Origin: Oxalobacteraceae bacterium
GTDB lineage: Bacteria; Pseudomonadota; Gammaproteobacteria; Burkholderiales; Burkholderiaceae_D
Direction: 5' to 3'
Assembly: GCA_013284265.1 (NCBI GenBank)
Contig: JABTBR010000026.1
Location: 1-64,000, forward strand
DNA length: 64,000 nt
The translations under genes and the position numbers were made by a program. How positions within the stretch are numbered: position 1 is the first letter of the stretch; the number at the start of each line of letters is the position of its first letter. Below the pieces are notes generated by a model. That model saw only the letters and a program-made list of their open reading frames with translations. It did not search any database and was not told the origin of the DNA. Below are positions 2,965-27,943 of this stretch, piece by piece.

Positions 2965-4392
2965 ATGCACAAGAAAATCGCCAGCCTGCTGGTCACCGCC
3001 GCACTGTCCGCCGGTCTGCCGCAGGCCGCGCACGCGGCCAGCAATGAAACCATCACCAAACGCTATTTCGCCGCGCTGGTAGGCAGCGAGCCCAGGCTGG
3101 CCGAGCTGACCATGTTCTTCACGCTGATGCCCAAGGGCGGCGATCTGCACCACCATTATTCCGGCGCCATCTACGCCGAACAGTTCCTGGAATGGGTCGA
3201 CAAGCAGAACTATTGCGTCGACTCGACCGCGCTGACGATCCAGGCCATGCCGCCGGCCGGCGCCTGCGTCTCCGGCGCCAGCGTCATGAACAACAATGCC
3301 CTGCTGGCGCAAGTGCTGCAGCGCTGGTCCGACAAGGACTTCTACAACCATGGCGCGCTGCAATCGCCGCCGGACCGCCAGTTCTTCGACACCTTCGGCT
3401 ACTTCGGCCCGGTCGCCTCGACCAACACGGCCGATGGCCTGCAGCGCCTGAAGCAGCGCGCCATCCAGGAAAACGTCAGTTACCTGGAGACCATCTTCGA
3501 ACTGGCGCCGATGGTGTTGAACGCCGACTTCGACAAGCAGGCGGCAAGCGGCGTCAACGATGCGATGCTGACGGCCTTCAGCGAACAGCTGGACAAGAAC
3601 CAGGATTTCAAAAAGGGCATCGATGCCTACCTGGCCAACGTCAACACCAGCGGCGCCGGCATCGACGATGACAAGTTCACCCTGCGCTACCAATCCTTCG
3701 TGCTGCGCTTCCTGTCGCCGTCGCAGGTGTTTTCCACCATGCTGGCTAGCTTCAAATTGGCCAGCATGGATAGCAAGATCGTCGGCGTCAACATCGTCGG
3801 CCAGGAAAGCGTGAATGTGTCGATGCGCGATTACGCGATGCATATGCAGATGTTCAAGTATCTGAAGGCGCGCTATCCGAAGGTGAAACTGGCGCTGCAC
3901 GCCGGCGAGCTGGCGCTGGGCCTGGTGCCGCCGGAAGGCCTGAGCTTCCACATCCGCGACGCGATCGACGTGGCCGGCGCCCAGCGCATCGGCCATGGCA
4001 TCGACATCGCGCATGAAACGAATCCGATCGGCATCATGAAAAAGATGCGCGAGCAGAATATCGCGGTCGAGGTCAATCTGAGCAGTAATGACTTCATCCT
4101 GGGTATCAAGGACCAGGCCCATCCGGTGACTCTGTACCGCAAATATGGCGTGCCTTTCGTCATCTCCACCGATGATGCCGGCGTGTCGCGCAATAATTTG
4201 TCGGGCGAGTACGTGCTGTTTGCCAGCCGCTACAAGACCAATTATGCCGAGGTGAAAAAACTGTCGTATGACAGCCTGCGCTACTCCTTCCTGGCCCAGG
4301 ACGACAAGGATCGCCTGATCAAGGCGCTCGACGGCAAGTTCGCCCGTTTCGAGGCCGATATCGCAGCAGGCGAAGCGCGCAAAGGCAAGTAA
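2965..4392 (+). CDS. Exported adenosine deaminase (adenosine/AMP deaminase superfamily)
   Basis: A 475-residue adenosine deaminase-fold enzyme with a clear Sec signal peptide (cleavage expected after AAHA, about residue 24), so it acts outside the cytoplasm, converting (deoxy)adenosine to (deoxy)inosine. Metal and catalytic motifs are present: KGGDLHHHYSG (H62-H64), LHAGE (H312, E315), RIGHGIDI (H344) and STDDAGVS (D403, D404). The length and the KGGDLHHH start resemble secreted ADGF/CECR1-like deaminases more than the roughly 340-residue cytosolic Add. It follows guaD by 22 bp. Periplasmic versus fully secreted location cannot be decided from the sequence. Substrate (adenosine, deoxyadenosine, perhaps AMP) is an inference. 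Confidence 0.88.
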   Translation: MHKKIASLLVTAALSAGLPQAAHAASNETITKRYFAALVGSEPRLAELTMFFTLMPKGGDLHHHYSGAIYAEQFLEWVDKQNYCVDSTALTIQAMPPAGACVSGASVMNNNALLAQVLQRWSDKDFYNHGALQSPPDRQFFDTFGYFGPVASTNTADGLQRLKQRAIQENVSYLETIFELAPMVLNADFDKQAASGVNDAMLTAFSEQLDKNQDFKKGIDAYLANVNTSGAGIDDDKFTLRYQSFVLRFLSPSQVFSTMLASFKLASMDSKIVGVNIVGQESVNVSMRDYAMHMQMFKYLKARYPKVKLALHAGELALGLVPPEGLSFHIRDAIDVAGAQRIGHGIDIAHETNPIGIMKKMREQNIAVEVNLSSNDFILGIKDQAHPVTLYRKYGVPFVISTDDAGVSRNNLSGEYVLFASRYKTNYAEVKKLSYDSLRYSFLAQDDKDRLIKALDGKFARFEADIAAGEARKGK

Positions 4393-4430
4393 TTGTCCTG
4401 TTCCGCCGGTCAGCGCGCCGGCGGCAGACT

Positions 4431-4536
4431 TAAAACCCACGGCAAAGAGCCGGGGTCTGACCCCAGGGTCCGGAGAGGGGCTACGCCCCGCCGGTCCCGA
4501 CGGGACCGGCCCCCAGGGTTGAGCCGTGGGTTTAAA
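4431..4536 (-). repeat. Intergenic palindromic repeat, copy A
   Basis: About 106 bp bounded by TAAAACCCACGGC at the left and GCCGTGGGTTTAAA at the right. It has the nested inner hairpins of the family (ggggctacgcccc and ggtcccgacgggacc). The ggcaaagagccgggg end is on the left, so it is in the reverse orientation relative to copies B, D, E, F and G. A decayed extra arm (ctttgcccccgggttttaaa) follows at about 4580-4600. It lies 38 bp after the adenosine deaminase stop and could also act in transcription termination. Confidence 0.85.
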
Positions 4537-5224
4537 TATGGGCGGCGGCACCTGGGCGCTGCAAATCGCCAGCCTCCGGCGCTTTGCCCCCGGGTTTTAA
4601 ACAAGCGGCTCGCGCTCCCATCTGTGGCCATCCTGCTACACAATTTGGTAGCGACCCTCTAGCTTTGTTGCTCTATGGTTATGAATCAATTTCACGCAAC
4701 CATGTCTCTACTATAATTAATTCACGGTACGCCCCGCTGGGCCTGCCATTCTTAAGTTCCTGACAAGCATCTCGCACTATTTATATCTCTATCGTATAAA
4801 TCTTGAAGGCAAAACGTATTTGTCATCGGTTTTGGGCTCATGCATAGTTCACGAAATGATCCAAATAAGCAATATTTAGCTTTCGGAACGACGGCCAGAG
4901 TGTAGGGGCAGGCTGGCGTCGCTTGTTGCAGTCAAAAGCTGGTCACACAGGCGTCATCGCCCTGAAATAAAGAATCGTTACACTCATGCGTTGCTCCGAG
5001 AGGAGCGACGCTTTTGCTTTCTAGCAGAGTCATTTTGCCGCGCGCGCCGCGCGCGCCGCCCCGATTGAACAGCGGCCGGCAGATGCAGCAGAAACACCCA
5101 TTTCCAGATCCGCCGGCAAGGCGGGTAGCCAGGTTCCTGGCGTACCAAATGCAGCACAGTAAGAGGGAAGCCCCGCCACCAGCAGGGATGCCAGATAACT
5201 ATTAGTCTTTTTTGGGGTTACACA
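4537..5224 (+). promoter_or_regulatory. Long leader region upstream of the Oar-like TonB receptor
   Basis: A 688-bp stretch without a convincing gene; it is more AT-rich than its surroundings up to about 4980. A perfect TATAAT is at 4712-4717 but with only a weak -35 in front. A stem-loop GTTGCTCC/GGAGCGAC with GAGA loop is at 4990-5009, followed by a weak T-rich tail. A run of alternating GC with inverted symmetry is at about 5039-5057. A short frame at 5014-5205 has no supporting features. No known riboswitch was recognised. Confidence 0.3.
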
Positions 5225-8200
5225 ATGATCAATCACAAACGGCTCCGCTTGACGCAGATTGCGCTTAGCCTGTCGATCGCGCTTGCAGCACCGGCCTACG
5301 CACAGAACACCACCTCGGCCATCGGCGGACGCATCTCCGCCACCGACGGCAAACCTGCCAGCGGTGCCACCGTGACCATCGTTCACGTGGAATCGGGCTC
5401 GGTCAACAATGTCGTCACCGACGCCGAGGGCCGCTATGTGGCACGCGGCCTGCGTACCGGCGGTCCGTACACGATCACGATCACCAAAGATGGCGTCTCC
5501 GAAAAACGCGAAGGCGTATTCATCCAGCTGGCCGAAACGGCCAATGTGGATGCGACGCTGGGCGCGCCTGCGATGCAGACCGTGACCATCGCCGGCGTGG
5601 CCGGTGGCCGTTCGGACAAATTCTCCAAAACGAATATGGGTTCCGGTACCAACATTACCGCGACCGAACTGGCGATCCAGGGTTCGATCAACCGCAATCT
5701 GCAGGATTACGCGCGTAGCGATCCACGTGTGTCGCAGACCGACAAGGAACGCGGCGAAATGTCCGTGGCCGGCCAGAACTCGCGCTACAACTCGCTGACC
5801 ATCGATGGCGTGGCCGTCAACGATACCTTCGGCCTGGAGTTTTCCGGCAGCCCGACCGCCAAGCAGCCGATCTCGATCGAAGCGATCCAGTCGGTGCAGG
5901 TCAATGTGGCCAACTACGACGTCACGCAAAAAGGCTACACCGGCGGCAATATCAATGCCGTGACCAAGTCCGGCACCAACACCCTCAAGGGCAGTGTCTA
6001 CTATGTGTTCCGTAACGACGGCCTGGCTGGCGACCGCTACAACAGCACCACCAATACCTATTCCGCGCCGCCACCGTCGAAGGACACCACCAAGGGCTTT
6101 ACCGTCGGCGGCCCGCTGATCAAGGACACCCTGTTCTTGTTCGCCGGTTACGAAAAACTCGAATCGAGCCGCACCGCGCCAGCCTTCGGCCCTCTGGGCA
6201 GCTCGCTGACCAATGTCGGCATCACCGAATCGGCGATTGCTTCAGCCCAGAGTATTGCGCTGAATAAGTACAAATTCGATGCCGGCAGCTCGACCATCCC
6301 GTCGGGCAATAAGTTGTCGGTTGACGACACCTTGCTGAAACTGGATTGGAACATCAACGAGGCGCACCGCGCCATGTTCCGCTACTCGAAAACCAAGCAG
6401 ACCGAGCCGCAATTTGCCGGACTGAACGCGACCACCTTGTCGCTCAATTCGCAGTGGTACACCCAAGGCAAGGAAATTGAAACCAAGGTAGGCCAGTGGC
6501 TGGCAGACTGGACCCCGACGTTCTCGACCGAATTCAAGGTTTCCTCGCGCGACTACGAGGCGATACCGAAACTGAATGCCGAATTGCCGTTCATTAGTTT
6601 GCAGTTCACCGGCGCGACGCCTCCGGGCACGCCGTCGACGGTGTCGACCGCGCAGCGCTCGCTGTTCTTCGGTACCGACAGCAGCCGTCACCGTAATGCC
6701 CTCGCCACCAAGACCAAGGATGCTTACCTGGGGGCCAACTGGACGCTGGGCGACCACGAAGTCAAGTTCGGCGGAGACTACCAGAAGAATGATGTGTACA
6801 ACTCCTTCTTGCAAAATGTCTGGGGCAACTACACTTTCAACTGTACGCCAAATTTGCAATACAACTTCATCGGCGGCACCTTCGACTGCGGCGCCAAGGC
6901 GACCGCGGCCCAGATCGAGCAAGCTGTACTGGAGAATTTCAGCCGCGGCCGTCCATCTGCCTATACCCTGCAAGTTCCTAACGATGGCCGGACCCTTGAA
7001 GACGCCGTCTCGCGCTTCAGCCTGAAAAACTACGGTACCTTTGTGCAGGATACCTGGACCGTCAATCCGCGTCTGACGGTCAGCTATGGCCTGCGTCTGG
7101 ATGCTTCGCGTACCAGCGATCGTCCACTGAAAAACAATGCAGTGGCAGCACCGGTGATCGCCGCCGTTGGTCCGAATGGTCGTCAGACTGGCGGCTTCGA
7201 TCTGGACAATACCGTCACTTTCGACGGTACCAATCTGATCCAGCCGCGCGCCGGCTTCAACTACAAGTTCGACAGCGCGCGCCAGATGCAGATACGCGGC
7301 GGTGCTGGCCTGTTCCAGGGCGCTGCCGCAACCGTGTGGTTGTCCAACCCATTCTCCAATACCGGCATGGCTACCCATTCCATCGTCTGCGGCGGAACCA
7401 ATCCATGTACCGGAGAGGATAAATTCAATTCGGACATCAATAATCAGCCGACGAACTATCCGGCAGGTTCCTCCGTTGTGGCGGTTGACGCCTTGGCTCC
7501 CGGACTGCGCCAGCCTTCGATCTGGAAGTCGAATATCGCTTTCGAAACCGAAACGCCTTGGTTCGGTATCGTGTTTGGCGCCGAGTATCTGTACACCAAG
7601 AACAAGGATGGTATCTACTACCGCAACCTGAATTTGGGCGTACCGACCAAGACCGGCACTGATGGCCGCGAACTGTTCTATACCGCTCAAGGCTATAGCA
7701 AGGATTGCTGGACACCCGCAGGCGTCGCCATCACCAATGGCGCGTGTACTGGTAACCGTACCAAGGCTGCCAGCAATGCGGCCTTCAGCAACGTGCTGGT
7801 CGCCACCGGCACCGACAAGGGCAGCAGCAGCCTGGCCACGGTATCGCTGAGCCGTCCGATGACCTCGGGTCTGGGCTGGTCGGTTTCCTACACCTATACC
7901 GACGCCAAGGAAGTCTCCCCACTGGCGGCGACCACCTCCGGTTCGAACTTCAGCGCGCGCTCGGTATTCAATCCGAACGAAGAAGCGCTGGCCAACTCGA
8001 GCTATCTGGTCAAGGATCGCATCAACGCCCTGGTCAACTTCCAGAAGCGTTTCTTCGGTTCCTATAAAACCACCTTCGGCATGTTCTATGAAGGCCGTTC
8101 CGGCAAGCCATACAGCTGGACCGTCAACAATGACTTGAACGGCGACGGTATCGGCAGCAATGACTTGATGTTCATCCCGTCGGCGCCAGGTTCGGGTCAG

Positions 8201-8638
8201 GTAAGCTTCTCCGGCGATACAGCGACCAGCCATGTCAACGAAGACAAGTTCTGGGCCATCGTCAACGCCAATCCGGAACTGAAACGTTCGGCTGGCAATG
8301 TGATGAAGCGTAACGACAGCTTCGGTCCATGGACCAACAGCTTTGACGTGCGCATCAGCCAGGAAATTCCAGGCCTGTTCAAGAACAACAAGGCTTCCTT
8401 CACCTTCGACATCTTCAACTTCGGCAATCTGCTGAACAAGAAATGGGGCCGTATCAATGAGATCGGTTTCAACAGCTTCGGTGGCCAGGCGCGCAGCTTC
8501 GTCGATTTCGTCGGTCTGGATGCCAACGGCAAGTACATCTACAAAGTGCGCGACAGCGGCGTGGAAAACTATGATGTGCGCCAGGTTAAAGGCGAATCGC
8601 AATGGGCCATCCAGGCGACCGTCAAGTACGAATTCTAA
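5225..8638 (+). CDS. Oar-like TonB-dependent receptor with N-terminal carboxypeptidase-regulatory domain
   Basis: An 1137-residue outer-membrane receptor. Order: signal peptide (cleavage about AYA-QN, residue 26); a carboxypeptidase-regulatory-like beta-sandwich (about 30-115, containing GGRISATDGKPASGA and VVTDAEGRYV); a plug domain (about 130-260, with NSRYNSLTIDGVAVND and GYTGGNINAVTKSG); and a large beta-barrel ending in the aromatic residue F (TVKYEF). The architecture matches Oar-family receptors, which are long and whose ligands are mostly unknown. It sits between the adenosine deaminase and 5'-nucleotidase genes, so uptake of nucleic-acid products is possible, but nothing in the sequence proves the ligand. 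A strong terminator follows. Confidence 0.88.
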   Translation: MINHKRLRLTQIALSLSIALAAPAYAQNTTSAIGGRISATDGKPASGATVTIVHVESGSVNNVVTDAEGRYVARGLRTGGPYTITITKDGVSEKREGVFIQLAETANVDATLGAPAMQTVTIAGVAGGRSDKFSKTNMGSGTNITATELAIQGSINRNLQDYARSDPRVSQTDKERGEMSVAGQNSRYNSLTIDGVAVNDTFGLEFSGSPTAKQPISIEAIQSVQVNVANYDVTQKGYTGGNINAVTKSGTNTLKGSVYYVFRNDGLAGDRYNSTTNTYSAPPPSKDTTKGFTVGGPLIKDTLFLFAGYEKLESSRTAPAFGPLGSSLTNVGITESAIASAQSIALNKYKFDAGSSTIPSGNKLSVDDTLLKLDWNINEAHRAMFRYSKTKQTEPQFAGLNATTLSLNSQWYTQGKEIETKVGQWLADWTPTFSTEFKVSSRDYEAIPKLNAELPFISLQFTGATPPGTPSTVSTAQRSLFFGTDSSRHRNALATKTKDAYLGANWTLGDHEVKFGGDYQKNDVYNSFLQNVWGNYTFNCTPNLQYNFIGGTFDCGAKATAAQIEQAVLENFSRGRPSAYTLQVPNDGRTLEDAVSRFSLKNYGTFVQDTWTVNPRLTVSYGLRLDASRTSDRPLKNNAVAAPVIAAVGPNGRQTGGFDLDNTVTFDGTNLIQPRAGFNYKFDSARQMQIRGGAGLFQGAAATVWLSNPFSNTGMATHSIVCGGTNPCTGEDKFNSDINNQPTNYPAGSSVVAVDALAPGLRQPSIWKSNIAFETETPWFGIVFGAEYLYTKNKDGIYYRNLNLGVPTKTGTDGRELFYTAQGYSKDCWTPAGVAITNGACTGNRTKAASNAAFSNVLVATGTDKGSSSLATVSLSRPMTSGLGWSVSYTYTDAKEVSPLAATTSGSNFSARSVFNPNEEALANSSYLVKDRINALVNFQKRFFGSYKTTFGMFYEGRSGKPYSWTVNNDLNGDGIGSNDLMFIPSAPGSGQVSFSGDTATSHVNEDKFWAIVNANPELKRSAGNVMKRNDSFGPWTNSFDVRISQEIPGLFKNNKASFTFDIFNFGNLLNKKWGRINEIGFNSFGGQARSFVDFVGLDANGKYIYKVRDSGVENYDVRQVKGESQWAIQATVKYEF

Positions 8639-8669
8639 GCACGCCTTGATGCGAATGTGACACCCCGAA

Positions 8670-8701
8670 AACGGCTGATGGCGACATCAGCCGTTTTTTT
8701 T
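8670..8701 (+). terminator. Rho-independent terminator after the TonB receptor
   Basis: A perfect stem AACGGCTGATG/CATCAGCCGTT (about 11 bp) with a GCGA loop, followed by eight T residues. It separates the receptor gene from the downstream 5'-nucleotidase gene. Confidence 0.93.
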
Positions 8702-8750
8702 GCCCGCTTTGAGCTGTACAATATTTCCTTACCACCCGATCACCGACGCA

Positions 8751-10439
8751 ATGAAAAAATCCCTGTGTCCTATCGTCGCCGCCGTCCTCGTTACCCTGCT
8801 GGCCGGCTGCGCGACCCGACTGCCACCCAATACGGTCGAACTCAACCTCGTGGCCGTGAATGACTTTCACGGCAATCTGGAACCGAGCAAATTTACCTAC
8901 ACCAGCGCCGATGGCGCGCGCGAGCGCAGCGTCATCGCCGGCGGCATCGACACCCTGGGCGCGGCCCTGCAAGCCTGGCGCAAGGAAGACCCCCAACTGC
9001 TGCTGGTCGGCGCCGGCGACCTGATCGGTGCCAGCCAGTCTATCTCCTCGATGTGGGCCGATGAACCGACCGTCGGCGCGATGAATCTGCTGGGCCTGCG
9101 CGCCAGCTCGGTCGGCAACCACGAATTCGACGCCGGCCGGCTGGAACTGCTGCGCCAGCAAAAAGGCGGCTGCGTGTCGCCGCGTGCCGACAAGGCCTGC
9201 AAATTCGCGCCCGACTACCAGGGCGCCCGCTTCCAGTACCTGGCCGCCAATGTGCTCGACATGGTCACCGGCAAGCCGGTGCTGCCGGCCTACCGGATCG
9301 AAGAGACGCGCGGCGTCAAGGTCGGCCTGATCGGCGCGGTGCTGCGCGATACCACCGGCATGGTGCTCGCGTCCGGTATCGCCGGCCTGAACTTCGCCGA
9401 CGAGGCCGACTCCATCAACCGCGTACTGCCCGAGCTGCGCAAGCAGGGGGTAGACGTGTTCGTGGTGCTGATACACCAGGGCGGCCGCACCCCCGAACCC
9501 TTCGACCAGCCCGATTGCGGCAAACTGAGCGGCCCGATCGTCGACGTCGTCAAGCGCCTCGATCCGGCCATCCGCGTGGTCATCAGCGGCCACTCGCATA
9601 CCGGCTATCTGTGCCGCGTCGACGGCCGCCTGGTGACCCAGGCCGATATGGGCGGCCATGTGCTGTCGCGCATCAAGCTGCAGGTCGACACGGCCAGCAA
9701 CAAGGTACTGGCGGCCACGGCGCGCAACGTCATCATGACGCCAGGCCAGTATCCGCCCGACCCGGCGCTGGACGCCTATCTGGCGCAGATCCGCGAACGC
9801 AGCGCCAGCGCGCTGACGCGGCCGGTGGCCAAGCTGGCGCTGCCCGTCATTACGCGCAAGCTCAACCCTAGCGGCGAATCGGCGCTGGGCGATCTGGTGG
9901 CCGATTCGATGCTGCACGCCGGCCGTCCCTTCGGCGCGCAGATCGCCTTCATGAACAACCACGGCATGCGCCTCGACCTGGCCAGCGGTCCGGGCCTGGT
10001 GGCCACAGCCGGCCAGGCACAGGCGGTGCTGCCGTATGCGAATGGCCTGGTGGCGATGAACCTGACCGGCAGCCAGCTGCTCGAGCTGCTGGAGCAGCAG
10101 TGGGGTGGCCAGAAGGCGGCCGAGCGCGGCCTGCTGCAGGTGTCCGAAGGTTTCACCTATGCATGGGATAGCAGGCAGCCGGAAGGGCAGCGCATCGTGC
10201 CCGGCAGCGTGACCCTGCATGGCGTGCCGCTGGAGCCGGACAGCTATTACCGCGTGATGGTCAATGTGTTCCTGGCCGAAGGCGGCGACCTGTTCCCGCT
10301 GTTTCTGAAAGGCAGCCAGCGCGCCGACACGGCCATGCTCGACATCGACGCGCTGAAGCTGTTCCTGGCCAAACGCGAACAACTGGGCAAGCCGGCCGGG
10401 TCGGCCGACGCTCTCGGACGCATCAAGCGTCTTCCCTGA
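8751..10439 (+). CDS. Lipoprotein 5'-nucleotidase / UDP-sugar hydrolase family (UshA-like)
   Basis: A 562-residue dimetal phosphohydrolase that removes the 5'-phosphate from nucleotides. The start at 8751 gives a lipoprotein signal with lipobox LAGC (C about residue 20); alanine follows the cysteine, so outer-membrane sorting is expected. Metal-site motifs are in order: NDFHGN, GAGDLIGAS, GNHEFDAG and SGHSHTG. The C-terminal 5'-nucleotidase domain has FMNNHGMRLDL and YANGLVAMNLTG, which shape the base-stacking pocket. It lies 16 bp before the PLD-fold gene, so the two are likely co-transcribed and work in sequence: exonuclease products to nucleosides. Confidence 0.92.
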   Translation: MKKSLCPIVAAVLVTLLAGCATRLPPNTVELNLVAVNDFHGNLEPSKFTYTSADGARERSVIAGGIDTLGAALQAWRKEDPQLLLVGAGDLIGASQSISSMWADEPTVGAMNLLGLRASSVGNHEFDAGRLELLRQQKGGCVSPRADKACKFAPDYQGARFQYLAANVLDMVTGKPVLPAYRIEETRGVKVGLIGAVLRDTTGMVLASGIAGLNFADEADSINRVLPELRKQGVDVFVVLIHQGGRTPEPFDQPDCGKLSGPIVDVVKRLDPAIRVVISGHSHTGYLCRVDGRLVTQADMGGHVLSRIKLQVDTASNKVLAATARNVIMTPGQYPPDPALDAYLAQIRERSASALTRPVAKLALPVITRKLNPSGESALGDLVADSMLHAGRPFGAQIAFMNNHGMRLDLASGPGLVATAGQAQAVLPYANGLVAMNLTGSQLLELLEQQWGGQKAAERGLLQVSEGFTYAWDSRQPEGQRIVPGSVTLHGVPLEPDSYYRVMVNVFLAEGGDLFPLFLKGSQRADTAMLDIDALKLFLAKREQLGKPAGSADALGRIKRLP

Positions 10440-10455
10440 AGAAAGATATTGCCAT

Positions 10456-11670
10456 ATGCGACGCTTGTTACTCACCGCGCTGCTGAGCGCGGCCGGCCTG
10501 GCTCAGGCCGAATTTTCCATTCCCGGCTATGAACTGGTGCAAACCGCGCCCGTCGAAACGACTTTGTCGAATGCCGACTTGCGCGACCCCGTCACGGTCT
10601 GGAGCGAGCTGTTCGACCGCGCCGCCAGCGAGATCGTGATCGGCCAGTTCTATGTGGTCGGCAAGGCCGGCACGCCCTTCGACAAGGTGCTGGCCAGTTT
10701 GACGGCGGCCGGCCAGCGCGGCGTGAAGATCCGCTTCCTGCTGGACCAGAAGGGCGTCGGCCTGTCCGACAAGGACACCATCGCGCAGCTGAAGGCGATT
10801 CCGAATCTGGAGCTGCGCATCCTCGACTTCAGCAAGCTCACCGGCAACGGCATCATCCACGCCAAGTACCTGGTGAGCGACCGCGCCACTGCCTATGTGG
10901 GGAGCCAGAACTTCGACTGGCGCTCCTTCAGCCACATCCACGAAACCGGCCTGCGCATCAGCGATCCGGCCGTGGTGGCGCAGGTGCAGGCGATCTTCGA
11001 CAACGACTGGCGCGCCCAGACGCTGGTGGCGCAGGGCATGGCGGTGCCTGTGCTCAACAGCAAGACTGTGGCGGCCGACGCCAGCCGCAATGCCTATTTG
11101 CTGGCCAGTCCGAATGCCTACAACCCGGCCGGCGTGGGCGACTCGGAAACCGGCCTGCCGGCGCTGCTGGCCGGCGCCCAATCCGAAGTGCGGGTACAGC
11201 TGCTCGACTATGCGCCGCTCAGCTACGGGCCCAAGGGCACGCGTCCTTACTACGCCGTGATCGACAACGCCGTGCGCAGCGCCGCCAACCGCGGCGTCAA
11301 GATCAAGCTGATGGTGTCGAACTGGAACCTGGAAGCGCCCGCGCTGCCCTACCTGAAAAGCCTGGCGATCCTGCCGAATGTGGAGATCCGCGTGGTGACC
11401 CTGCCGCGCGCGGCCAGCGGCTTCATTCCCTTCGCCCGCGTGATCCACAGCAAGAACATGGTCATCGACGGCAAGCTGGCCTGGGTCGGCACCAGCAACT
11501 GGAGCGGCGGCTATCTGGACCTGTCGCGCAACCTGGAAGTGGTGATGCGCAACGAGGCCATGGCCCAGCGCATTGGCGCGCTGCATGAGCAGCTGTGGAG
11601 CTCGGCATACGCCCAGCCGCTCGATATCAACAAGAGTTATCCGAAGCCACAGAAGGGCAGCGCGGATTGA
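10456..11670 (+). CDS. Exported phospholipase D-fold protein resembling PLD3/PLD4 exonucleases
   Basis: A 404-residue two-domain PLD-superfamily protein with a short Sec signal (cleavage about AQA-EF, residue 19). Both HKD motifs are intact: H135-K137-D142 in HAKYLVSD and H331-K333-D338 in HSKNMVID. The residues around them, VGSQNFDWRS after the first and VGTSNWSGGY after the second, resemble eukaryotic PLD3/PLD4 and the poxvirus K4 type rather than classical bacterial PLD or cardiolipin synthases. PLD3/PLD4 are known as 5'-exonucleases on single-stranded nucleic acid. Coupling to the upstream 5'-nucleotidase supports a nuclease role; that activity is inferred, and a phospholipase activity remains possible. 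Confidence 0.85.
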   Translation: MRRLLLTALLSAAGLAQAEFSIPGYELVQTAPVETTLSNADLRDPVTVWSELFDRAASEIVIGQFYVVGKAGTPFDKVLASLTAAGQRGVKIRFLLDQKGVGLSDKDTIAQLKAIPNLELRILDFSKLTGNGIIHAKYLVSDRATAYVGSQNFDWRSFSHIHETGLRISDPAVVAQVQAIFDNDWRAQTLVAQGMAVPVLNSKTVAADASRNAYLLASPNAYNPAGVGDSETGLPALLAGAQSEVRVQLLDYAPLSYGPKGTRPYYAVIDNAVRSAANRGVKIKLMVSNWNLEAPALPYLKSLAILPNVEIRVVTLPRAASGFIPFARVIHSKNMVIDGKLAWVGTSNWSGGYLDLSRNLEVVMRNEAMAQRIGALHEQLWSSAYAQPLDINKSYPKPQKGSAD

Positions 11671-11744
11671 GTGCCGCTGGGCTTGGGGCGGGCAGTAGGT
11701 TCTGGCTTCACTGCCCTTACCTTAGAGGGCCGCATGCAGGCGCC

Positions 11745-11847
11745 AAAAACCCACGGCGTAACCCTGGGGTCTGACCCAGGGTCCGGGGAGGGGCTACGCC
11801 CCGCCTGCCCCTGCGGGACAGGCCCCCGGCTCTTTGCCGTGGGTTTT
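11745..11847 (+). repeat. Intergenic palindromic repeat, copy B
   Basis: About 103 bp between AAAACCCACGGCG and GCCGTGGGTTTT, with the gtaaccctggggtctgaccc half on the left and ccggctctttgcc on the right (forward orientation). The inner GC hairpin reads ctgcccctgcgggacag, a compensated variant of the ggtcccgatgggacc loop in other copies. It lies between convergent genes (PLD-fold protein and the binding protein on the minus strand). Confidence 0.88.
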
Positions 11848-11895
11848 GGACAGCGACCGCGGCCCGTCAGCGAAGGACGGCGGCCTTCCTGCGCC

Positions 11896-12801
11896 TTATC
11901 TATTCGCCAGCGGATCGAACCACAGCTCGCTGCGTCCCAGCGGCGTCTTCGGTGACAGCGTGGGATTGGGAATTTGCAGCACGCGCCGCTTGCGCAGGCC
12001 GGACTTGTCGATGATCTCGCCCTTGTAGCGCTCGAACAGGGCATTCCAGGAACCGTCGCGCAGCATGATTTCCAGCCCCGCCTCGATGCGCTCGCGCAGA
12101 TGGCGGCCTTCGTCGTCGCGCCGCACGAAGAAGTAGCGCGGCAGCGGATAGTGCAGCAGCAGCGTCGGCTCGATCGCCAGCGTGGGATGGGCCGCGCGCC
12201 TTTCCTCATATTCGCGCACCGCCTCGTCGGTCGCACGCGAGAAATAATCGAAGCGCTTGGCCTCCAGCATGGCGAACAGGCCGTCGTAGACCGAGCCTTC
12301 CACCGTCTCCAGCCCGGCCGCGCGCAGGATGGGCACATCGGCCCAGTCCTTGCCCTGGCCGGCGCGGAAGCGGCGCAGGTCGTCGAGTGTGCGGATGGCG
12401 GCGAAGCGCGCCAGGTCGGCCTTGCGCACCAGGAAAATCCGGTAGCCCAGCAGGCCCTTGTCGACCGGATAGCGGATCGGCATGAACTGCTTCTCCAGCT
12501 CGGGCGCGGTGGCGCGTACGAAGATGTTGATATGGCCGGTCTGCATGCCCAGTTCATGGGTGATGCGCTGGGGCGACATTTCGGTGCCGGCCTGGTGCAT
12601 CTGGAAGGCGCCGAACTGCCTGGTGGTTTTTTCCAGCGCACTGCGCAACACCGCCCAGTCGTAGTCGTAGCGGCTGTCGATGCCGATGGCCGTCAGCGGA
12701 TAAACGATATTGGTGTTGGCGCGCGCGGCCGGAACGGCCCATAGCATGGCCAGCAGCGCGCAGCAGGCGATGCTGTTCAGGAGAGCGCTGGTCTGCTTCA
12801 T
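11896..12801 (-). CDS. Periplasmic solute-binding-protein-like protein (family 3 fold)
   Basis: A 301-residue exported protein. The start MKQTSALL at 12801 gives a good signal peptide ending at about AARA; the frame stays open further upstream without support. The rest resembles the periplasmic amino-acid-binding (SBP family 3) fold, with TLDDLRRFRAGQGKDW, a segment typical of the uncharacterised betaproteobacterial members. No transporter permease or ATPase is adjacent, so it is an orphan binding protein that may be a sensor or have another partner. The ligand is not predictable. Confidence 0.7.
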   Translation of the reverse strand: MKQTSALLNSIACCALLAMLWAVPAARANTNIVYPLTAIGIDSRYDYDWAVLRSALEKTTRQFGAFQMHQAGTEMSPQRITHELGMQTGHINIFVRATAPELEKQFMPIRYPVDKGLLGYRIFLVRKADLARFAAIRTLDDLRRFRAGQGKDWADVPILRAAGLETVEGSVYDGLFAMLEAKRFDYFSRATDEAVREYEERRAAHPTLAIEPTLLLHYPLPRYFFVRRDDEGRHLRERIEAGLEIMLRDGSWNALFERYKGEIIDKSGLRKRRVLQIPNPTLSPKTPLGRSELWFDPLANR

Positions 12802-12961
12802 GCGGCACAACTTCAAAACGGGGGAAAAGACTAGTGTGCCATGCCTAACGGCAATATACCAAGTCATTTTCCCATCAGACTGCGAATGCAAGGGGGCAAC
12901 GCCGCGCGGGTCCGAAAATTCCCATTAAACAACACATTGTTACAGCGCGGCGCGCACACAA

Positions 12962-16241: not shown

Positions 16242-16433
16242 AAGAACCCACGGCAAAGAGCCGGGGGCCGGTCCCCTCGGGGACCGGCGGGGCGCAGCCC
16301 CTCCCCGGACCCTGGGGGCAGACCCCAGGGTTACGCCGTGGGTTTTAGGCCGCGGCCGGCGGCCCGCGAACTAAACATTTTTCTTAACTTAGCGGCATTA
16401 GGGTCTGACCCCAGGGTTACGCCTTGGGTTTTA
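16242..16433 (-). repeat. Composite intergenic palindromic repeat, copy C (reverse orientation)
   Basis: A full core (16242-16347) with ggcaaagagccgggg at the left and ccccagggttacgcc at the right, then a GC-rich linker and an AT-rich segment (aactaaacatttttcttaac, about 16369-16388), then a second partial unit ending in gccttgggtttta at 16433. The linker and second unit match the reverse complement of copy E at 25944-26046 with only a few differences, making the two composite copies an inverted pair. It fills the gap between the chemoreceptor and deoR-like genes. Confidence 0.9.
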
Positions 16434-16493
16434 GATGGCCGCCAGCGGCCTGCCTGCCAGCAAAGCATCGCTGGCGCCACGAACCCACGTCAT

Positions 16494-17261
16494 TCACGCC
16501 AGCACAAGCTCAATCCCCATCTCCCGATACGGCGCCAGCAGCGCCGGCTCCACACCGCTAGCCACCACGATCGCGCCTATGCTCCCCAAAGGCGCGATCT
16601 GGAACGGCGACGCCGTCTCCAGCTTCTCCGGCGAGGCCAACACCACCGTCTTGCGCGCCGCCTGGCTGATGGCGCGCTTGGTGCCCGCCTCCTCATAATC
16701 CCCGGTGCTGATGCCGCTCTGCGGATGCAGGCTGCACACCCCCATGAAATACAGATCCGTGCGGATCTGCGCAATCGCCTCCAGCGCGCTGGGACCCATC
16801 GCCACGATGGAGTGCTTGAACAGGCGCCCGCCGATCATGATCACCTCGATATGCTCATGCCCGATCAGTTCCAGCGCAATCGAGGGACTATGCGTGACCA
16901 CGGTAGCGCGCAGTTCGCGCGGCAGTTGGCGCGCCATCTGTACCGCCGTGGTGCCGCCATCGATGAACACCACCTGGCCGTCCCTGACCATGGCCGCCGC
17001 CGCCCGTCCGATGGCCGGCTTGGCCTCGGCCGACAATTGCTGGCGCTGGGCGAAGTTGCCCATCGCCGGGGAGGGCGGCAGGTCCAGCGGCAGCGCGCCG
17101 CCGTGCACCCGTTGCAGTAAGCCCTCTTTGGCCAGTTCGCGCAGGTCGCGCCGTATCGTGTCTTCCGATAGCCCCAGCTGCTCGCTGAGCGCCTTGGCGA
17201 CGATCTGGCCGTCCTGTTTGAGCAGATTGAGCAGCATTTCCTTGCGTTGGCGGGTCAGCAT
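16494..17261 (-). CDS. DeoR-family transcriptional regulator
   Basis: A 255-residue repressor-type protein. The N-terminal helix-turn-helix (LTRQRKEMLLNLLKQDG, then LSEQLGLSEDTIRRDLRELA, about residues 1-55) and the LQRVHGGA boundary are classic DeoR family; the C-terminal DeoRC sensor domain contains VFIDGGTTA, MIGGRLFK and the YEEAGTKRAI stretch. Start MLTRQRKEM at 17261 was chosen because all relatives begin there. DeoR proteins respond to phosphorylated sugars. Divergent from nudK with a triple tandem repeat between them, so self-regulation and nudK control are likely; control of the nucleoside transporter is conjecture. Confidence 0.9.
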   Translation of the reverse strand: MLTRQRKEMLLNLLKQDGQIVAKALSEQLGLSEDTIRRDLRELAKEGLLQRVHGGALPLDLPPSPAMGNFAQRQQLSAEAKPAIGRAAAAMVRDGQVVFIDGGTTAVQMARQLPRELRATVVTHSPSIALELIGHEHIEVIMIGGRLFKHSIVAMGPSALEAIAQIRTDLYFMGVCSLHPQSGISTGDYEEAGTKRAISQAARKTVVLASPEKLETASPFQIAPLGSIGAIVVASGVEPALLAPYREMGIELVLA

Positions 17262-17290
17262 CCGGTGTCCTTGTTTGCACGAATTATCTT

Positions 17291-17320
17291 GATATTGCAC
17301 GATATTGCATGATAATGTTT
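17291..17320. promoter_or_regulatory. Triple 10-bp tandem repeat, candidate DeoR-family operator
   Basis: Three adjacent 10-bp units, gatattgcac, gatattgcat and gataatgttt, at exact helical-turn spacing in the divergent deoR-like/nudK gap. DeoR-family operators are commonly short direct repeats of about 10-bp period, so this is the best candidate site for the product of the adjacent gene. The remaining gap holds the Shine-Dalgarno for nudK (cggagc at 17362-17367). Confidence 0.55.
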
Positions 17321-17372
17321 AAAAAGGCAAGCAAGAAACTCGGCTATATCTCACTCAAAATCGGAGCAAACC

Positions 17373-17966
17373 ATGCCAGAAGACCGTGTCCGCATCCATG
17401 CCGTGCAAACTTTGTCGCAAGACTGGTTTCTGCTGCAGAAAACCACCTTCGACTATCGGCGCAGCGATGGCAGTTGGCAGACCATGACGCGCGAAACCTA
17501 CGACCGCGGCAACGGCGCCGTGATCCTGCTGTACAACCGCGCGCGCCGCAGCGTGGTGCTGATCCGCCAGTTCCGCTTTCCCACCTACGGCAATGGGCAT
17601 GATGGATTTTTGATCGAAGCGGCGGCCGGGCTGCTGGACCACGCCAGTCCGGAACAGCGCATCAAGGCAGAGGTGGAGGAGGAAACCGGCTACCGCGTCA
17701 GCGAGGTGCGCAAGGTGTTTGAAGCCTTCATGAGTCCAGGCTCGGTGACGGAGCGGCTGTACTTTTTCGTGGGCGAATACGAGCCGGATTCGCGGCCAGG
17801 CACGGGTGGCGGCATTGCGGAGGAGGGGGAGGATATCGAAGTGCTGGAGCTGCCCTTCGAGCAGGCGCTGGCGATGATGGCGAGGGGCGAGATCTGCGAT
17901 GGCAAGACCATTATGCTGCTGCAGTATGCGCAGCTGCATTTGTTGCCGGTAGCGGGAGGGAGGTAG
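17373..17966 (+). CDS. nudK: NudK-type Nudix hydrolase (GDP-mannose pyrophosphatase family)
   Basis: A 197-residue Nudix hydrolase closely resembling E. coli NudK, which hydrolyses GDP-mannose and related GDP-sugars to GMP plus sugar phosphate. The Nudix box begins [11 protein letters not shown] and ends EVEEETGY, with the one-residue-shorter spacing and the substitution of the usual arginine that NudK also has. The NudK-like tail has [16 protein letters not shown], then [18 protein letters not shown] and [14 protein letters not shown]. Cytosolic. Divergent from the DeoR-type regulator. It would add a GMP-producing route to the surrounding purine genes. Confidence 0.92.
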
Positions 17967-18000
17967 GGAAATGCCCGGTGGCGGGCCGCCGGCTTCAACC

Positions 18001-18140
18001 TTAAACCCACGGCGTACCCCTGGGGTCTGACCCAAGGGTCCGGGGAGGGGCTGCGCCCCGCCGGTCCCGATGGGACCGGCCCCCGGCTCTTTGCCGTGGG
18101 TTTAAAAGAGGTTCCCCGGCACTTTGCCGTGGTTTAAAAA
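18001..18140 (+). repeat. Intergenic palindromic repeat, copy D with extra half-unit
   Basis: Core 18001-18106 bounded by TTAAACCCACGGCG and GCCGTGGGTTTAAA, forward orientation, with the ggtcccgatgggacc inner hairpin identical to copy E. A further half-unit (ccccggcactttgccgtggtttaaaaa) follows to 18140, as if a partial tandem duplication had occurred. It sits between convergent nudK and the ABC permease gene, 13 bp from the permease stop codon. Confidence 0.88.
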
Positions 18141-18153
18141 CGAGGCAGCGTGT

Positions 18154-19125
18154 TTAACGCGACTTGACGAACGGCGTGCCGAGCGCCTTCGGTGCGACCG
18201 ACTTGGCCATCAGGCCAGCGAGCACGATCACGGTGACCACATACGGCACCATCTGGATCAGCGAGCCTGGAATGCGGCCGATACCCGGCAGGTCCACACC
18301 TTCGATCTGGATCTGCACCGCGCCGAAGAAGCCGAACATCAGGCAGCCCAGGAAGGTATAAACCGGACGCCAGTTACCGAACACCATCGCCGTCAGCGCC
18401 AGGTAGCCGGCACCGGCCGACATGTCGCGCAGGAAGAAGCCGCTCTGCACGATCGCCAGATAAGCGCCCGAGAACGAGCACAGTATCCCGGCAACCAGCA
18501 TCGCCATATAGCGCTGGCCGGCCACGTTGACGCCGGCCGCGTCGGCCGCGTGCGGATTCTCGCCGCAGGCGCGCAGGCGCAGGCCGAAACGGCTGTGATA
18601 AATCACCCAGTGCACCAGCGGCACCAGACCGAAAGCCAGATACACCAGCACCGAATGGCCGCCGATCAGATGCGCATACAGCCAGCCGAAGAAGGGGATG
18701 CCTTCCACTGCGGCCGAACCGGGCAGCACCACGTCGAACAGGCGCGCCTGCCCCAGGTCCGGCGTGCGGCCGCCCTGCTGGAAGATGTACTGGGCCAGCA
18801 CGAAGGTCAGGCCGCTCATGGCGATGTTGATCGCGATGCCGCCCACCAGCTGATTGCCTTTTTGCGTGATGCTGACAAAACCCTGCAGCAGCGCCAGCGC
18901 CACCGACACCAGCATGCCCGCGCCGACGCCGAGCCAGGGGTTCTGGGTCGTGTAAGCCACGGCGGCCGAGGTAAAGGCCGACGCCAGGATCTTGCCTTCG
19001 AGGCCCAGGTCGATCACGCCGGAGCGCTCCGCGAACAGGCCCGCCATGGCGGCGAAAATGAGCACCGGCGCATTGCGCACGGTCGATACCAGAATACTGG
19101 CGAAATGGAAGTCGTCAAACGTCAT
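18154..19125 (-). CDS. Nucleoside ABC transporter permease (second subunit, NupQ-like)
   Basis: A 323-residue hydrophobic inner-membrane permease of the branched-chain/sugar-type (BPD_transp_2) family as found in nucleoside importers (Bacillus NupQ/YufQ). Seen: FAAMAGLFAERSGVIDLGLEGK near residue 30, the sequence typical of the nucleoside-type permeases, and CGENPHAADAAGVNV, the cytoplasmic loop that contacts the ATPase. About 8-10 membrane segments. It is the last gene of the minus-strand operon binding protein - ATPase - permease - permease, 10 bp after the first permease gene. Substrate specificity is inferred from family and context. Confidence 0.92.
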   Translation of the reverse strand: MTFDDFHFASILVSTVRNAPVLIFAAMAGLFAERSGVIDLGLEGKILASAFTSAAVAYTTQNPWLGVGAGMLVSVALALLQGFVSITQKGNQLVGGIAINIAMSGLTFVLAQYIFQQGGRTPDLGQARLFDVVLPGSAAVEGIPFFGWLYAHLIGGHSVLVYLAFGLVPLVHWVIYHSRFGLRLRACGENPHAADAAGVNVAGQRYMAMLVAGILCSFSGAYLAIVQSGFFLRDMSAGAGYLALTAMVFGNWRPVYTFLGCLMFGFFGAVQIQIEGVDLPGIGRIPGSLIQMVPYVVTVIVLAGLMAKSVAPKALGTPFVKSR

Positions 19126-19135
19126 ATGGTTCCCC

Positions 19136-20214
19136 TCAAGCCTTGGCCTGCTTGAGCAGGCGGGCGACTACCGGTGCGTAGAAGTTTTCCATCGCGCCGC
19201 AGAACAGGATGATCAGACCCTGGATAAAGATGAAGGTCTCGGGCGGAATGTTCTGTTTTTCCAGCGACAGGTCGAAGCCGCCCTGGATCAGCGCGCCGAA
19301 CAGCACCGCCGACAGGAAGATGCCGACCGGATGCTGGCGCCCCATCAGCGCGATGGCGATGCCGACGAAGCCGGCGCCGCCGACGAAGTTCAGGCTCAGG
19401 TAGTGGGTCGAACCCATGATGGAGTTGACCGAGCCCAGGCCGGCCAGCGCGCCAGCGATCAGCATGACGATGATGATCATCTTGCTGATGCGGATGCCGG
19501 CGTAGTGCGCCGCATGCGGATTGAGGCCGGTGGTGCGCAGCTTGAAACCCCACGAGGAACGCGTCACCACCACGCCGTAGATGGCCAGTGCCACGATCGC
19601 CAGCAGGAAGCTGATGTTGAGCGGGGTGTCGCCCAGCGCCGGGAACCAGGTGCCCAGGCGCGGCATGGCCGCGCTGTCGGCGAACACGCGGCTGGCGGTA
19701 TTCTGCTCGCCCGGCGGGATCAGGTATTTGACGATGATGAAATTCATCAGCTGGCTGCAGATGTAATTGAACATGATGGTGGTCACCACCACGTGGCTGC
19801 CGCGCTTGGCCTGCAGATAGCCGGGCAGGAAGGCCCACAGCGCGCCGAATAAGGCGGCGCTGAGCATGGCCACGGGGATCAGCGCCCAGGGCGACAGCGA
19901 GCTGTCGAAGGCCAGCATGGCCAAGGTCAGGCCTAGGCCGCCAAAGTACATCTGGCCTTCGGAGCCGATGTTGAACAGGCCGGCCTGCATGGCGATCGAC
20001 ACCGACAGGCCGGTGAAGATGAAGGTGGAGGCGTAGAACAGCGTGTAGCTCAGCCCTTCCGGGTTGATGATGGCGCTGTTGATCAGGATGCCCATCGATT
20101 CGACCGGATCTTCCTTCAGGAACAGGATCACCAGCGCGGCCACCAGCAGGGCCGACATCAGGTTCAGGACGGGCAGGACAAACGCGGTTACCCAGCGTGG
20201 CAGGTCGTGGTTAT

Positions 20215-20218
<4 letters not shown>
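19136..20218 (-). CDS. Nucleoside ABC transporter permease (first subunit, NupP-like)
   Basis: A 360-residue inner-membrane permease, paralogous to its neighbour and resembling Bacillus NupP/YufP. Family features are FTGLSVSIAMQAGLFNIGSEGQ around residue 75, the FNYICSQLMNFIIVKYLI region, and TTGLNPHAAHYAGI, the coupling loop for the ATPase. Its start overlaps the end of the ATPase gene by 4 bp (20215-20218), so translation is coupled. With the other permease it forms the heterodimeric membrane channel for imported nucleosides. Confidence 0.92.
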
Positions 20219-21744
<1,526 letters not shown>

Positions 21745-21808
21745 AGGATCGTTTTTAATTAAGAACGCGCCGCACGGAGCAGGACTCCGGCGGCGCGTTC
21801 AGTGCTAG

Positions 21809-21918
21809 TAAGAGGAACTTGTTTCAAAATGAGCGCAGCGAGGCGTGGCGACGAAGGCAGTACGACTGTACGGCAAGGCGCCACAACGAAGCTGCGGTCT
21901 TTTTGAAACGAGTTCTTA
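21809..21918. repeat. 110-bp imperfect palindrome with terminal inverted repeats
   Basis: The left end reads GAACTTGTTTCAAAATGAG and the right end, in reverse complement, GAACTCGTTTCAAAAAGAC. The interior continues pairing (gcgcagcgaggcgtggcg against the complement of cgccacaacgaagctgcg) up to a GTAC-GACT-GTAC tip, so nearly the whole element folds as one hairpin. It is unrelated in sequence to the AAAACCCACGGC family. It overlaps the stop codon of the binding-protein gene and may tune expression between that gene and the ATPase. Confidence 0.8.
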
Positions 21919-22911
21919 GACCGGGCAGCTATTGGCGGCGCGATAGTCGATGACCTTGACCTTGCCATCAATGATGTCCTTGCGCGCACCGAGTACGCGT
22001 TTTTCGATTTCCGGCGTGATCAGGCTGCGGTTATGCTCGTCCAGCGCCCAGTCCACACCGCCATCCTTGATGCCCTTGGAGGTCACGCCGGCTTTCCAGG
22101 TGCCGTTCTTGAGCTGCATGAAGGAGTCGTAGACGGCATTGTCGACGCGCTTGACCATCGAGGTCAGCATCGTGCCCGGATACAGGTGGTTCTGGTTCGA
22201 ATCGACGCCGATGGCCAGCTTGCCTTTTTCCTTGGCCGTCTGCAGCGTGCCCAGGCCACTGCCGCCGGCCACCGCGAAGATCACGTCGACGCCGCGGTCG
22301 AACTGCGAGCGCGCCAGTTCGCCACCCTTGGCCGGATCGTTCCACGCGGCCGAGGTGGTGCCCACCATGTTCTGGGTGACTTCGGCCTTGGCCACGGCGG
22401 CCTTGGCGCCCTGGGCGTAGCCGCAGGCGAAGGTGCGGATCAGCGGAATGTCGATGCCGCCGACGAAGCCGAGTTTTTTGGTTTTCGATGCCATGGCAGC
22501 GGCCACGCCGACCAGATACGAGCCTTCTTCTTCCTTGAAGACGATCGAGTTGACATTGCTGCCCTGGGCGACGCCGTCGATCAGGATGAAGCGCACTTTC
22601 GGGAATTCCTTGGCGACCTTCTGCACCGCCTGGGTCTGGGCGAAGCCGATCGAGGCGATCAGGTCGAGGTTCTTGCGGGCCAGGCCTCGCAGCACCTGTT
22701 CGGCCTGGGTGTCGCTGGACGCTTGCACCTCGATGAAGCCGATATTGGTTTCCTTCTTGAAGCGCGAGGCGCCTTCGAAGGCGGACTGGTTGAAGGACTT
22801 GTCGAACTTGCCGCCTGCGTCATACACGATGCCAATCTTAGGATCGGCCGCGGACGCGTTGGCAGCCATGCACAGCGCTGCGATCGTCAAACTAAAGGGT
22901 GTGAGTTTCAT
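21916..22911 (-). CDS. BMP-family nucleoside-binding lipoprotein-like/periplasmic protein
   Basis: A 331-residue periplasmic binding protein of the basic membrane protein (BMP/PnrA/NupN) family, the receptor for purine and other nucleosides. Start MKLTPFSL at 22911 gives a Sec signal ending ANASA-ADPK; no lipobox cysteine is seen. Family motifs are IGIVYDAGGKFDKSFNQSA, the FGGID-type stretch GFVGGIDIPL and VDVIFAVAGGSG. First gene of the nucleoside ABC operon. The frame remains open for 88 codons upstream but that part overlaps the regulatory gap and lacks protein-like features. The hairpin element begins exactly at its stop codon. Confidence 0.92.
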   Translation of the reverse strand: MKLTPFSLTIAALCMAANASAADPKIGIVYDAGGKFDKSFNQSAFEGASRFKKETNIGFIEVQASSDTQAEQVLRGLARKNLDLIASIGFAQTQAVQKVAKEFPKVRFILIDGVAQGSNVNSIVFKEEEGSYLVGVAAAMASKTKKLGFVGGIDIPLIRTFACGYAQGAKAAVAKAEVTQNMVGTTSAAWNDPAKGGELARSQFDRGVDVIFAVAGGSGLGTLQTAKEKGKLAIGVDSNQNHLYPGTMLTSMVKRVDNAVYDSFMQLKNGTWKAGVTSKGIKDGGVDWALDEHNRSLITPEIEKRVLGARKDIIDGKVKVIDYRAANSCPV

Positions 22912-23656
22912 GTATGGGCTCCTGGAAGATCGGTATTGTATATTTTTATTCGTCAAAACAGCTAATACAGGCACATCAAACCGGTTCCAGCCTGCCGCCG
23001 GCAGAAGCTTTCGCGGTGCAGCCCATGAAGGCCAAATCCATTCCCAAAAATATTGCAACGCAACAAGAAAGCCACATTGCCAGAAATGCATCTTCATTCT
23101 ATGTCGTACTGCAACAACATCCTGTTTCGGTCCAAACACAATTTCGCATTGTTGTTTTTCTGTGAGGATGGACAATAAATCACGCGATTTTGACCATTGT
23201 CAAAACTCCAGCAAACTTTCGATTTTTTGCCGCCACAACGCTTGCTTGCTGAGTACTATTGCGCTCCTGTCCAGAGTGGCGAAGCCACTCAAAAGCGGAC
23301 CGGACCGGGCTGGGACGTCACTTCTGTTTTGCTAGCGATCTGCCACGTGTCCGCTAGCCATGTGCTGCTGACAGAGCCACCCATTACTATGCATCAGCCC
23401 CGATATGTTCGGCAAATACGATTTTATTTGCCTATTTATATAAATATCATATCAATGGAAACATCCAAGAAGTGATTTCCTGCCATTTTTATTAATGCTA
23501 GCATCGGCTGTGCTTTGATATTTTGCAAAGTAAACGGCCATTTATTGCACGTAGGCTGGCGTGCTCCGCCATTGGTTTTCGAGCGAGACGCAGTCCATGC
23601 TGCCGCATTCCGTATTCCGCATTCCGTATTGACGCCTATCCACAGGGAGTTGGACC
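22912..23656. promoter_or_regulatory. Divergent control region of the nucleoside ABC operon and TonB receptor
   Basis: A 745-bp AT-rich gap between the divergent binding-protein and receptor genes. It holds an 18-bp inverted repeat TTTTGACCATTGTCAAAA (23188-23205; 7-bp arms, 4-bp spacer). On the minus strand this overlaps a perfect -35 TTGACA (23203-23198) with a TTTATT -10 (23179-23174) at 18-bp spacing, so a factor bound there would block the transporter promoter. A second half-site GTCAAAAC is at 22962-22969. Small frames in the gap have no protein-like support. No riboswitch was recognised. Confidence 0.45.
23603..23630 (+). repeat. Perfect 14-bp tandem duplication in the receptor leader
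   Basis: CCGCATTCCGTATT occurs twice back to back at 23603-23616 and 23617-23630, 27 bp before the TonB receptor start codon. It lies just upstream of the Shine-Dalgarno (cagggag at 23642-23648). Confidence 0.8.
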
Positions 23657-25948: not shown

Positions 25949-26152
25949 ACCCAAGGCGTAACCCTGGGGTCTGACCCGGCGGGTCAGACCCAAATGCCGC
26001 TAAGTTAAGAAAAATATTTAGTTCGCGGGCCGCCGGCCGCAGCCTAAAACCCACGGCGTACCCCTGGGGTCAGACCCCAGGGTCCGGGGAGGGGCTGCGC
26101 CCCGCCGGTCCCGATGGGACCGGCCCCCGGCTCTTTGCTGTGGGTTTTAAAA
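25944..26152 (+). repeat. Composite intergenic palindromic repeat, copy E (forward orientation)
   Basis: Begins at the receptor stop codon with a short unit (tttaaacccaaggcgtaacc, then gtctgacccggcgggtcagac), followed by the AT-rich/GC-rich linker at about 25994-26045 and a full core to 26152. The first 100 bp are the reverse complement, with few differences, of 16345-16435 in copy C. The two composites thus form long inverted repeats about 9.7 kb apart. Confidence 0.9.
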
Positions 26153-27931: not shown

Positions 27932-27943
27932 GGAGTTAGCGAG

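Follow-up and report, generated by a model that had tools for sequence, protein, structure and literature searches.

A bacterial relative of PLD3 and PLD4 in a gene unit that may take phosphate from nucleic acids

What does a phospholipase D (PLD)-fold protein do when its gene starts 16 bp behind the stop codon of a lipoprotein 5'-nucleotidase gene? The question is raised by a 64,000-nucleotide stretch of an Oxalobacteraceae bacterium (the window; GenBank contig JABTBR010000026.1, contig C58 of a genome of 6.94 Mb in 138 contigs), in which guaD, an adenosine-deaminase-like gene, an interval of 832 bp where no gene was called, an Oar-like receptor gene, the 5'-nucleotidase gene, and the PLD gene follow one another on the + strand. 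The original prediction, made from the sequence alone, described three exported enzymes clustered with a TonB receptor, and open reading frames, N termini, and Pfam domains agree with it; gene coordinates also reproduce the 16-bp spacing. On balance, we favor the view that the receptor, the 5'-nucleotidase, and the PLD form one PhoB-controlled unit taking phosphate from extracellular nucleic acid, with the PLD acting like the animal enzymes PLD3 and PLD4. Computed features, namely, the gene order, the kinship to PLD3/PLD4, the catalytic residues, PhoB-like boxes, and linkage to S1/P1 nuclease genes in relatives, are the evidence considered here. The central features are as follows.

2965 to 4392, + strand: exported adenosine-deaminase-like protein, 475 amino acids (PF00962, A_deaminase, 5.4e-23)
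4929 to 4968, + strand: four PhoB-like half-sites 11 bp apart, then a -10-like TTACACT at 4978 to 4984 (weighted score, 23.3)
5225 to 8638, + strand: Oar-like TonB-dependent receptor, 1137 amino acids (PF25183, OMP_b-brl_4; PF13620, CarboxypepD_reg; PF00593, TonB barrel)
8751 to 10439, + strand: lipoprotein 5'-nucleotidase, 562 amino acids (PF02872, 5_nucleotid_C; PF00149, Metallophos)
10456 to 11670, + strand: exported PLD with two HKD motifs, of the SpPLD and PLD3/PLD4 group, 404 amino acids (PLDc_2 in two stretches)

A PLD of the PLD3/PLD4 kind

The PLD, which is 83% identical to a PLD of Rugamonas rubra, begins with MRRLLLTALLSAAGLAQA, a putative signal peptide; signal peptides in this work were judged by eye and not by SignalP. 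Its similarity to PLD3/PLD4 over the whole length exceeds that to other PLDs, and it is likewise close over its whole length to SpPLD from Serratia plymuthica AS9 (PDB 7e0m). No close profile or structural match to the canonical lipid PLDs (Streptomyces, human PLD1/2) was found. Profile and structure comparisons agree with the PLD3/PLD4 kinship that had been predicted, which is strong, and neither places the protein in a lipid-acting clade. In the tree, the branching order of PLD3, the loci L128 and L129, and the main group is left unsettled, and three outgroup rows have very long branches. The labels DrmC, cardiolipin synthase, and NucT were also considered for this protein, and none of these identities is claimed because every NCBIfam hit fell below its cutoff.

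Comparisons among relatives rely on 90 loci, made up of 80 of the 148 confirmed in genome contigs (the other 68 were left out), the window, and nine further stretches; one more match, G028, was kept out of the context counts. Genes were called with our own script and clustered by BLAST, and Pfam supplied a name for one member of each cluster. A class-wide sampling of 369 genomes matched two, that of the window and a distant relative already present in the phylum search.

In structural work on PLD3, the residues that bind the phosphate are H201, K203, N218, H416, K418, and N432, while Y126, D220, and Y411 contact the first nucleotide (PMC10783504). In the window PLD, the predicted active site includes H135, K137, N152, D154, H331, K333, and N348. 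When residues are paired with PLD3 by hand on alignments, H135, K137, N152, H331, K333, N348, Y66, and D154 are identical in all 90 loci. The two HKD motifs with their GSxN and GxSN extensions are equally constant (H135, K137, D142, G149, S150, and N152; H331, K333, D338, G345, and N348 in 90/90), S347 is serine in 88, and the second motif of the window PLD has aspartate where PLD3 has E423. The DWRS and SNWSG contexts that first suggested PLD3/PLD4 hold up in their cores, as D154-W155-R156 and N348-W349 are invariant in the 90 loci; residue 350, the second serine of SNWSG, is serine in 40 and alanine in 40. At the position of PLD3 Y411 the window has F326, with phenylalanine in 82 loci and tyrosine in eight (L090, L110, L111, L122, L123, L127, L128, and L129). 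Phenylalanine could still stack on the base, minus the hydroxyl that contacts O5'.

PhoB-like boxes and two proposed adjacent units

PhoB binds sites with the consensus CTGTCAT-N4-CTGTCAT, against which we scored pairs of half-sites out of 14; four half-sites received a weighted score of our own, and a unit passed if at most 3 of 300 shuffles reached its score. The 832-bp interval of the window contains the array at 4929 to 4968, whose score of 23.3 was reached by none of 300 shuffles and which is the best site on either strand of the window, the next nonoverlapping site scoring 19.6. Among relatives, the sense strand of the deaminase-receptor interval has a two-half-site match of at least 11/14 in 33 of 53 loci. 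Such a match was seen in 2.7% of dinucleotide shuffles (1060 in all), on the antisense strand of 5 of 53 loci, and on 14 of the 530 strands of other intergenic regions in these loci. In a good part of them, a run of three to four half-sites at 11-bp spacing leads into the -10-like TTACACT. The shuffle limit was passed by 22 of 51 receptor-led units (29 of 51 with three half-sites), by one of the 24 TonB/ExbBD-type units described below, and by none of 15 others; these 15 include four nucleotidase-PLD loci (L042, L050, L072, and L079) in which the walk to the first gene ended at the nucleotidase.

As a positive control, pstS of the same genome has the same kind of box. A PhoB model matches the genome 151 times, and we read as PhoB the best match alone, which scores 294.5 bits, just under the cutoff of 296.2, and lies about 4 kb from pstS. 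A putative PhoB box lies upstream of the unit, one mark expected of a Pho regulon member.

The box region also bears on the deaminase, which the original prediction had placed at the end of one line running from the PLD through the 5'-nucleotidase. The deaminase gene comes before the region of the PhoB-like promoter and probably belongs to a separate unit. What fits best is two adjacent units with different purposes, a purine unit (guaD and the deaminase gene) and a phosphate-starvation unit, and phosphate starvation is the likelier driver over a purine-scavenging line. Since the gene group looks phosphate-starvation induced, the PLD probably serves to obtain phosphate from nucleic acids, as a way of feeding in Rugamonas-related bacteria.

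A proposed route for nucleic acid phosphate and its rivals

A 5'-nucleotidase gene lies directly upstream of the PLD gene in 58 of the 90 loci, and an S1/P1 nuclease gene (PF02265; 103 bits for the R. rubra copy) lies directly downstream in 52, overlapping it by 4 bp in 38 of these. By hand count, the S1/P1 gene follows the PLD gene in 6/6 Rugamonas loci (window excluded), 12/14 of Janthinobacterium, 19/19 of Duganella, 7/7 of Pseudoduganella, and 6/6 of Massilia, plus two loci named by family only. Because the S1/P1-kind loci group together in a single supported clade of a reduced tree (17 of its 49 rows), these counts describe conservation in one lineage and not repeated gain. Elsewhere, in 25 of the 90 loci, some of them in Pseudomonas, the PLD gene is preceded by an ExbD-TonB-receptor-ExbB unit, with a nucleotidase gene between in three; L074, L111, L122, and L125 are examples of such units ending with the PLD gene. 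The receptor of this context is homologous to the receptor that takes the place of Oar in some loci of the other (34 to 44% identity, two pairs). None of these neighbors, including guaD with the deaminase gene, is present in 10 of the 90 loci.

In the window itself, no S1/P1 gene stands at this place.

11671 to 11895, no strand: gap of 225 bp where 52 of 90 loci carry the S1/P1 nuclease gene; holds a dispersed repeat

An S1/P1 remnant was sought in the window and not found, with no match better than an E value of 0.31, and loss is the simplest explanation. Elsewhere in the genome, a single S1/P1 match was found, sharing about 30% identity with the protein of the relatives; its gene is on contig C73 behind an open reading frame that we take, from the motif HEWPKHGTC, to be RNase T2-like; the two are possibly another secreted RNA/DNA-digesting pair. 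The repeat is intergenic, about 100 bases long, and partly palindromic. Besides the copy at 11746-11847, which fills the S1/P1 spot of other loci, full copies lie at 4432-4533, 16245-16365, 18003-18103, 26027-26148, and 44682-44783 (81 to 91% like the 11746 copy by blastn), and partial ones lie at 16401-16450, 25947-25977, and 46497-46563.

The 5'-nucleotidase has the Metallophos and 5_nucleotid_C domain pair of UshA/CD73-type enzymes and an LLAGC lipobox; its longest reading frame opens at 8700 (TTG), and 8751 is the probable lipoprotein start. Its nearest solved structures are 3ivd (1e-37) and 2z1a (1.7e-36), with CpdB-type enzymes only at 2e-11, and it reached none of the cutoffs in an NCBIfam scan. 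UshA/CD73-type enzymes take 5'-nucleotides, whereas PLD3-type enzymes, like spleen exonuclease, yield 3'-nucleotides, so the PLD is not expected to feed its neighbor directly, as had been proposed. Cleavage by S1/P1 enzymes leaves 5'-phosphate ends, and these enzymes act as 3'-nucleotidases as well; therefore, they would close the gap between the PLD products and the 5'-nucleotidase. The idea of exonuclease-to-phosphatase scavenging is thus consistent with the context of nucleotidase and, in other loci, S1/P1 neighbors, albeit not as a single line.

PLD3 and PLD4 are reported to correspond to spleen exonuclease. In published accounts, they are 5'-exonucleases of single-stranded DNA that digest single-stranded RNA too, and a 5'-phosphate shielded a dinucleotide from them (PMC8497607, PMC7857491). 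Nuclease activity is likely for the window PLD. One of its HKD histidines would attack a phosphodiester in single-stranded DNA or RNA, its partner would help to hydrolyze the phospho-enzyme, and nucleotides would be freed singly from the 5'-hydroxyl end. S1/P1 nuclease, the third enzyme in most close relatives, would cut strands internally and would dephosphorylate the PLD-made 3'-nucleotides (a 3' branch of PLD plus S1/P1), and the 5'-nucleotidase would take 5'-nucleotides (a 5' branch of S1/P1 plus 5'-nucleotidase). Nucleosides might then enter through a nearby PnrA-type ABC transporter, or be deaminated beforehand, and feed the upstream purine genes. We infer all of this chemistry, the 5' polarity and the products included, along with export, cotranscription, the receptor substrate, and PhoB control; the system is probably a variant of phosphate scavenging.

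Several points weigh against this reading. The window box is degenerate, scoring only 10/14 as two half-sites, with four half-sites in register; no assay of a bacterial member was found in the literature consulted, parts of the SpPLD paper included; and a PhoB-controlled lipid PLD is possible. Such a secreted phospholipase D or transphosphatidylase would free lipid phosphate as part of the response to phosphate starvation, in parallel with nuclease-like neighbors that work on other phosphorus sources, and Pho regulons commonly mix enzymes in this way. PLD3/PLD4 have been reported to make the lipid BMP, the PLD group has a fairly close neighbor in poxvirus F13, which goes by the name of envelope phospholipase, four Pseudomonas-type loci have a PhoD-type phosphatase gene close to the unit (one member Pfam scanned), and the solved relative 7e0m itself bears the name phospholipase. 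Nevertheless, a section heading in another paper denies that PLD3 is a phospholipase, true lipid PLDs are much more distant kin of the window PLD, SpPLD lacks a lipid gate and has a positive loop, and S1/P1 and 5'-nucleotidase genes directly adjoin the PLD gene in many loci, which leaves a lipid role a minority possibility.

Less probable still, the PLD would be no polynucleotide exonuclease and would instead be exported to split small or uncommon phosphodiesters, such as dinucleotides, NAD, glycerophosphodiesters, or cell envelope polymers. PLD3 and PLD4 do cut dinucleotides (PMC8497607), and the phenylalanine in place of Tyr411 may change end recognition; the S1/P1 linkage, however, points to polymers as substrates. 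Least credible is the single purine-scavenging route, in which nucleotides from the PLD pass directly to the 5'-nucleotidase and then to the exported deaminase. Although guaD, the deaminase, a receptor, the nucleotidase, and the PLD occur together in 53 of 90 loci, the expected 3'-nucleotide products do not suit a phosphatase nearest 5'-nucleotidases, and the region with PhoB-like boxes splits the deaminase from the rest.

Flanking genes and comparison with known systems

The purine unit and the candidate importer that the preferred phosphate route invokes are flanking features.

101 to 451, - strand: 5-hydroxyisourate hydrolase, purine catabolism (TIGR02962, 119.7 bits; cutoff, 87.45)
540 to 1517, + strand: allantoinase PuuE (TIGR03212, 521.1 bits; cutoff, 424.6)
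1632 to 2942, + strand: guanine deaminase GuaD (TIGR02967, 584.4 bits; cutoff, 375.4)
18154 to 22965, - strand: ABC transporter with a PnrA/Bmp-type binding protein, two permeases, and an ATPase (PF02608, 8.5e-67; PF02653 twice)

The puuE and 5-hydroxyisourate hydrolase genes lie upstream of guaD, and neither these three genes nor the 832-bp interval with its boxes figured in the original prediction; the PuuE start codon is uncertain, and our script places it at 504. No signal peptide was seen in GuaD by eye. The deaminase gene follows guaD after 22 bp, and its product begins with MHKKIASLLVTAALSAGLPQAAHA, read as an export signal. It passes the Pfam A_deaminase model (82 bits against a cutoff of 27) while missing the NCBIfam adenosine deaminase equivalog TIGR01430 (83.7 against 216.55 bits), and so we call it adenosine-deaminase-like; it has the motifs HHH, HAGE, GHG, and TDD. 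The guaD and deaminase genes lie upstream in 53 of 90 loci, joined by xdhC in most relatives of this kind. The receptor's label, Oar, is that of the original prediction.

Downstream, past other genes, a DeoR-type regulator gene, a Nudix gene, and the PnrA/Bmp-type transporter genes occupy 16494-22965. The transporter is a likely candidate nucleoside importer by its domains, and a permease of its cluster lies somewhere in the examined stretch of 48 of the 53 guaD-deaminase loci, the window included. A divergent solute-binding-protein-like gene (11896-12891; SBP_bac_3 at an E value of only 0.035) adjoins the unit in 28 of 80 relatives' loci. Farther on are a row of genes encoding DUF969, DUF979, and pyroglutamyl-peptidase proteins (26289-28594) and a gene for a 1849-amino-acid protein with many bacterial Ig-like repeats and a DUF4214 domain (28653-34202).

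Among known systems, the animal lysosomal 5'-exonucleases PLD3 and PLD4 have in common with the window PLD a near whole-length profile and structure match, the HKD histidines, and most substrate contacts. They differ in identity (about 26 to 28%), in having a membrane anchor where the window PLD has a cleavable-looking signal peptide, in Tyr411 and Glu423 of PLD3 in place of Phe and Asp, and in lacking the bacterial gene cluster. SpPLD is called a phospholipase D, and the report of its structure describes the absent lipid gate and the positive loop and asks whether the enzyme hydrolyzes nucleic acid (PMC8004604). Its nearest relatives in our tree, L125 and L126, stand in a TonB/ExbBD unit and not by S1/P1. 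A PMC-based search by titles and abstract starts found neither a paper linking SpPLD to PLD3 nor a description of a bacterial PLD3-like nuclease operon.

A bolder reading, less likely than not, gives exonucleases of the PLD3/PLD4 type a second role, perhaps even their first, in bacterial nutrition. The family would be a general exported exonuclease that several lineages have joined to a dedicated TonB/ExbBD/receptor system for product import and that one lineage has placed under PhoB with S1/P1 and the 5'-nucleotidase. If so, the solved Serratia "phospholipase D" would be a misnamed nuclease. The window PLD offers a concrete, cheap test of whether this PLD is a nuclease, a question that the SpPLD authors left open, and such proteins could provide soluble models from bacteria for PLD3/PLD4, both subjects of research on Alzheimer's disease and lupus.

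The family would also add to the enzymes by which bacteria use nucleic acids as phosphate. The S1/P1 family itself is directly behind the PLD gene in 52 of 90 loci but not beside the window PLD. Pseudomonas aeruginosa EddA/EddB is a secreted nuclease/phosphatase system for extracellular DNA under phosphate limitation; its enzymes belong to other families, and the window unit would match it in pairing an exported nuclease with a phosphatase under phosphate control.
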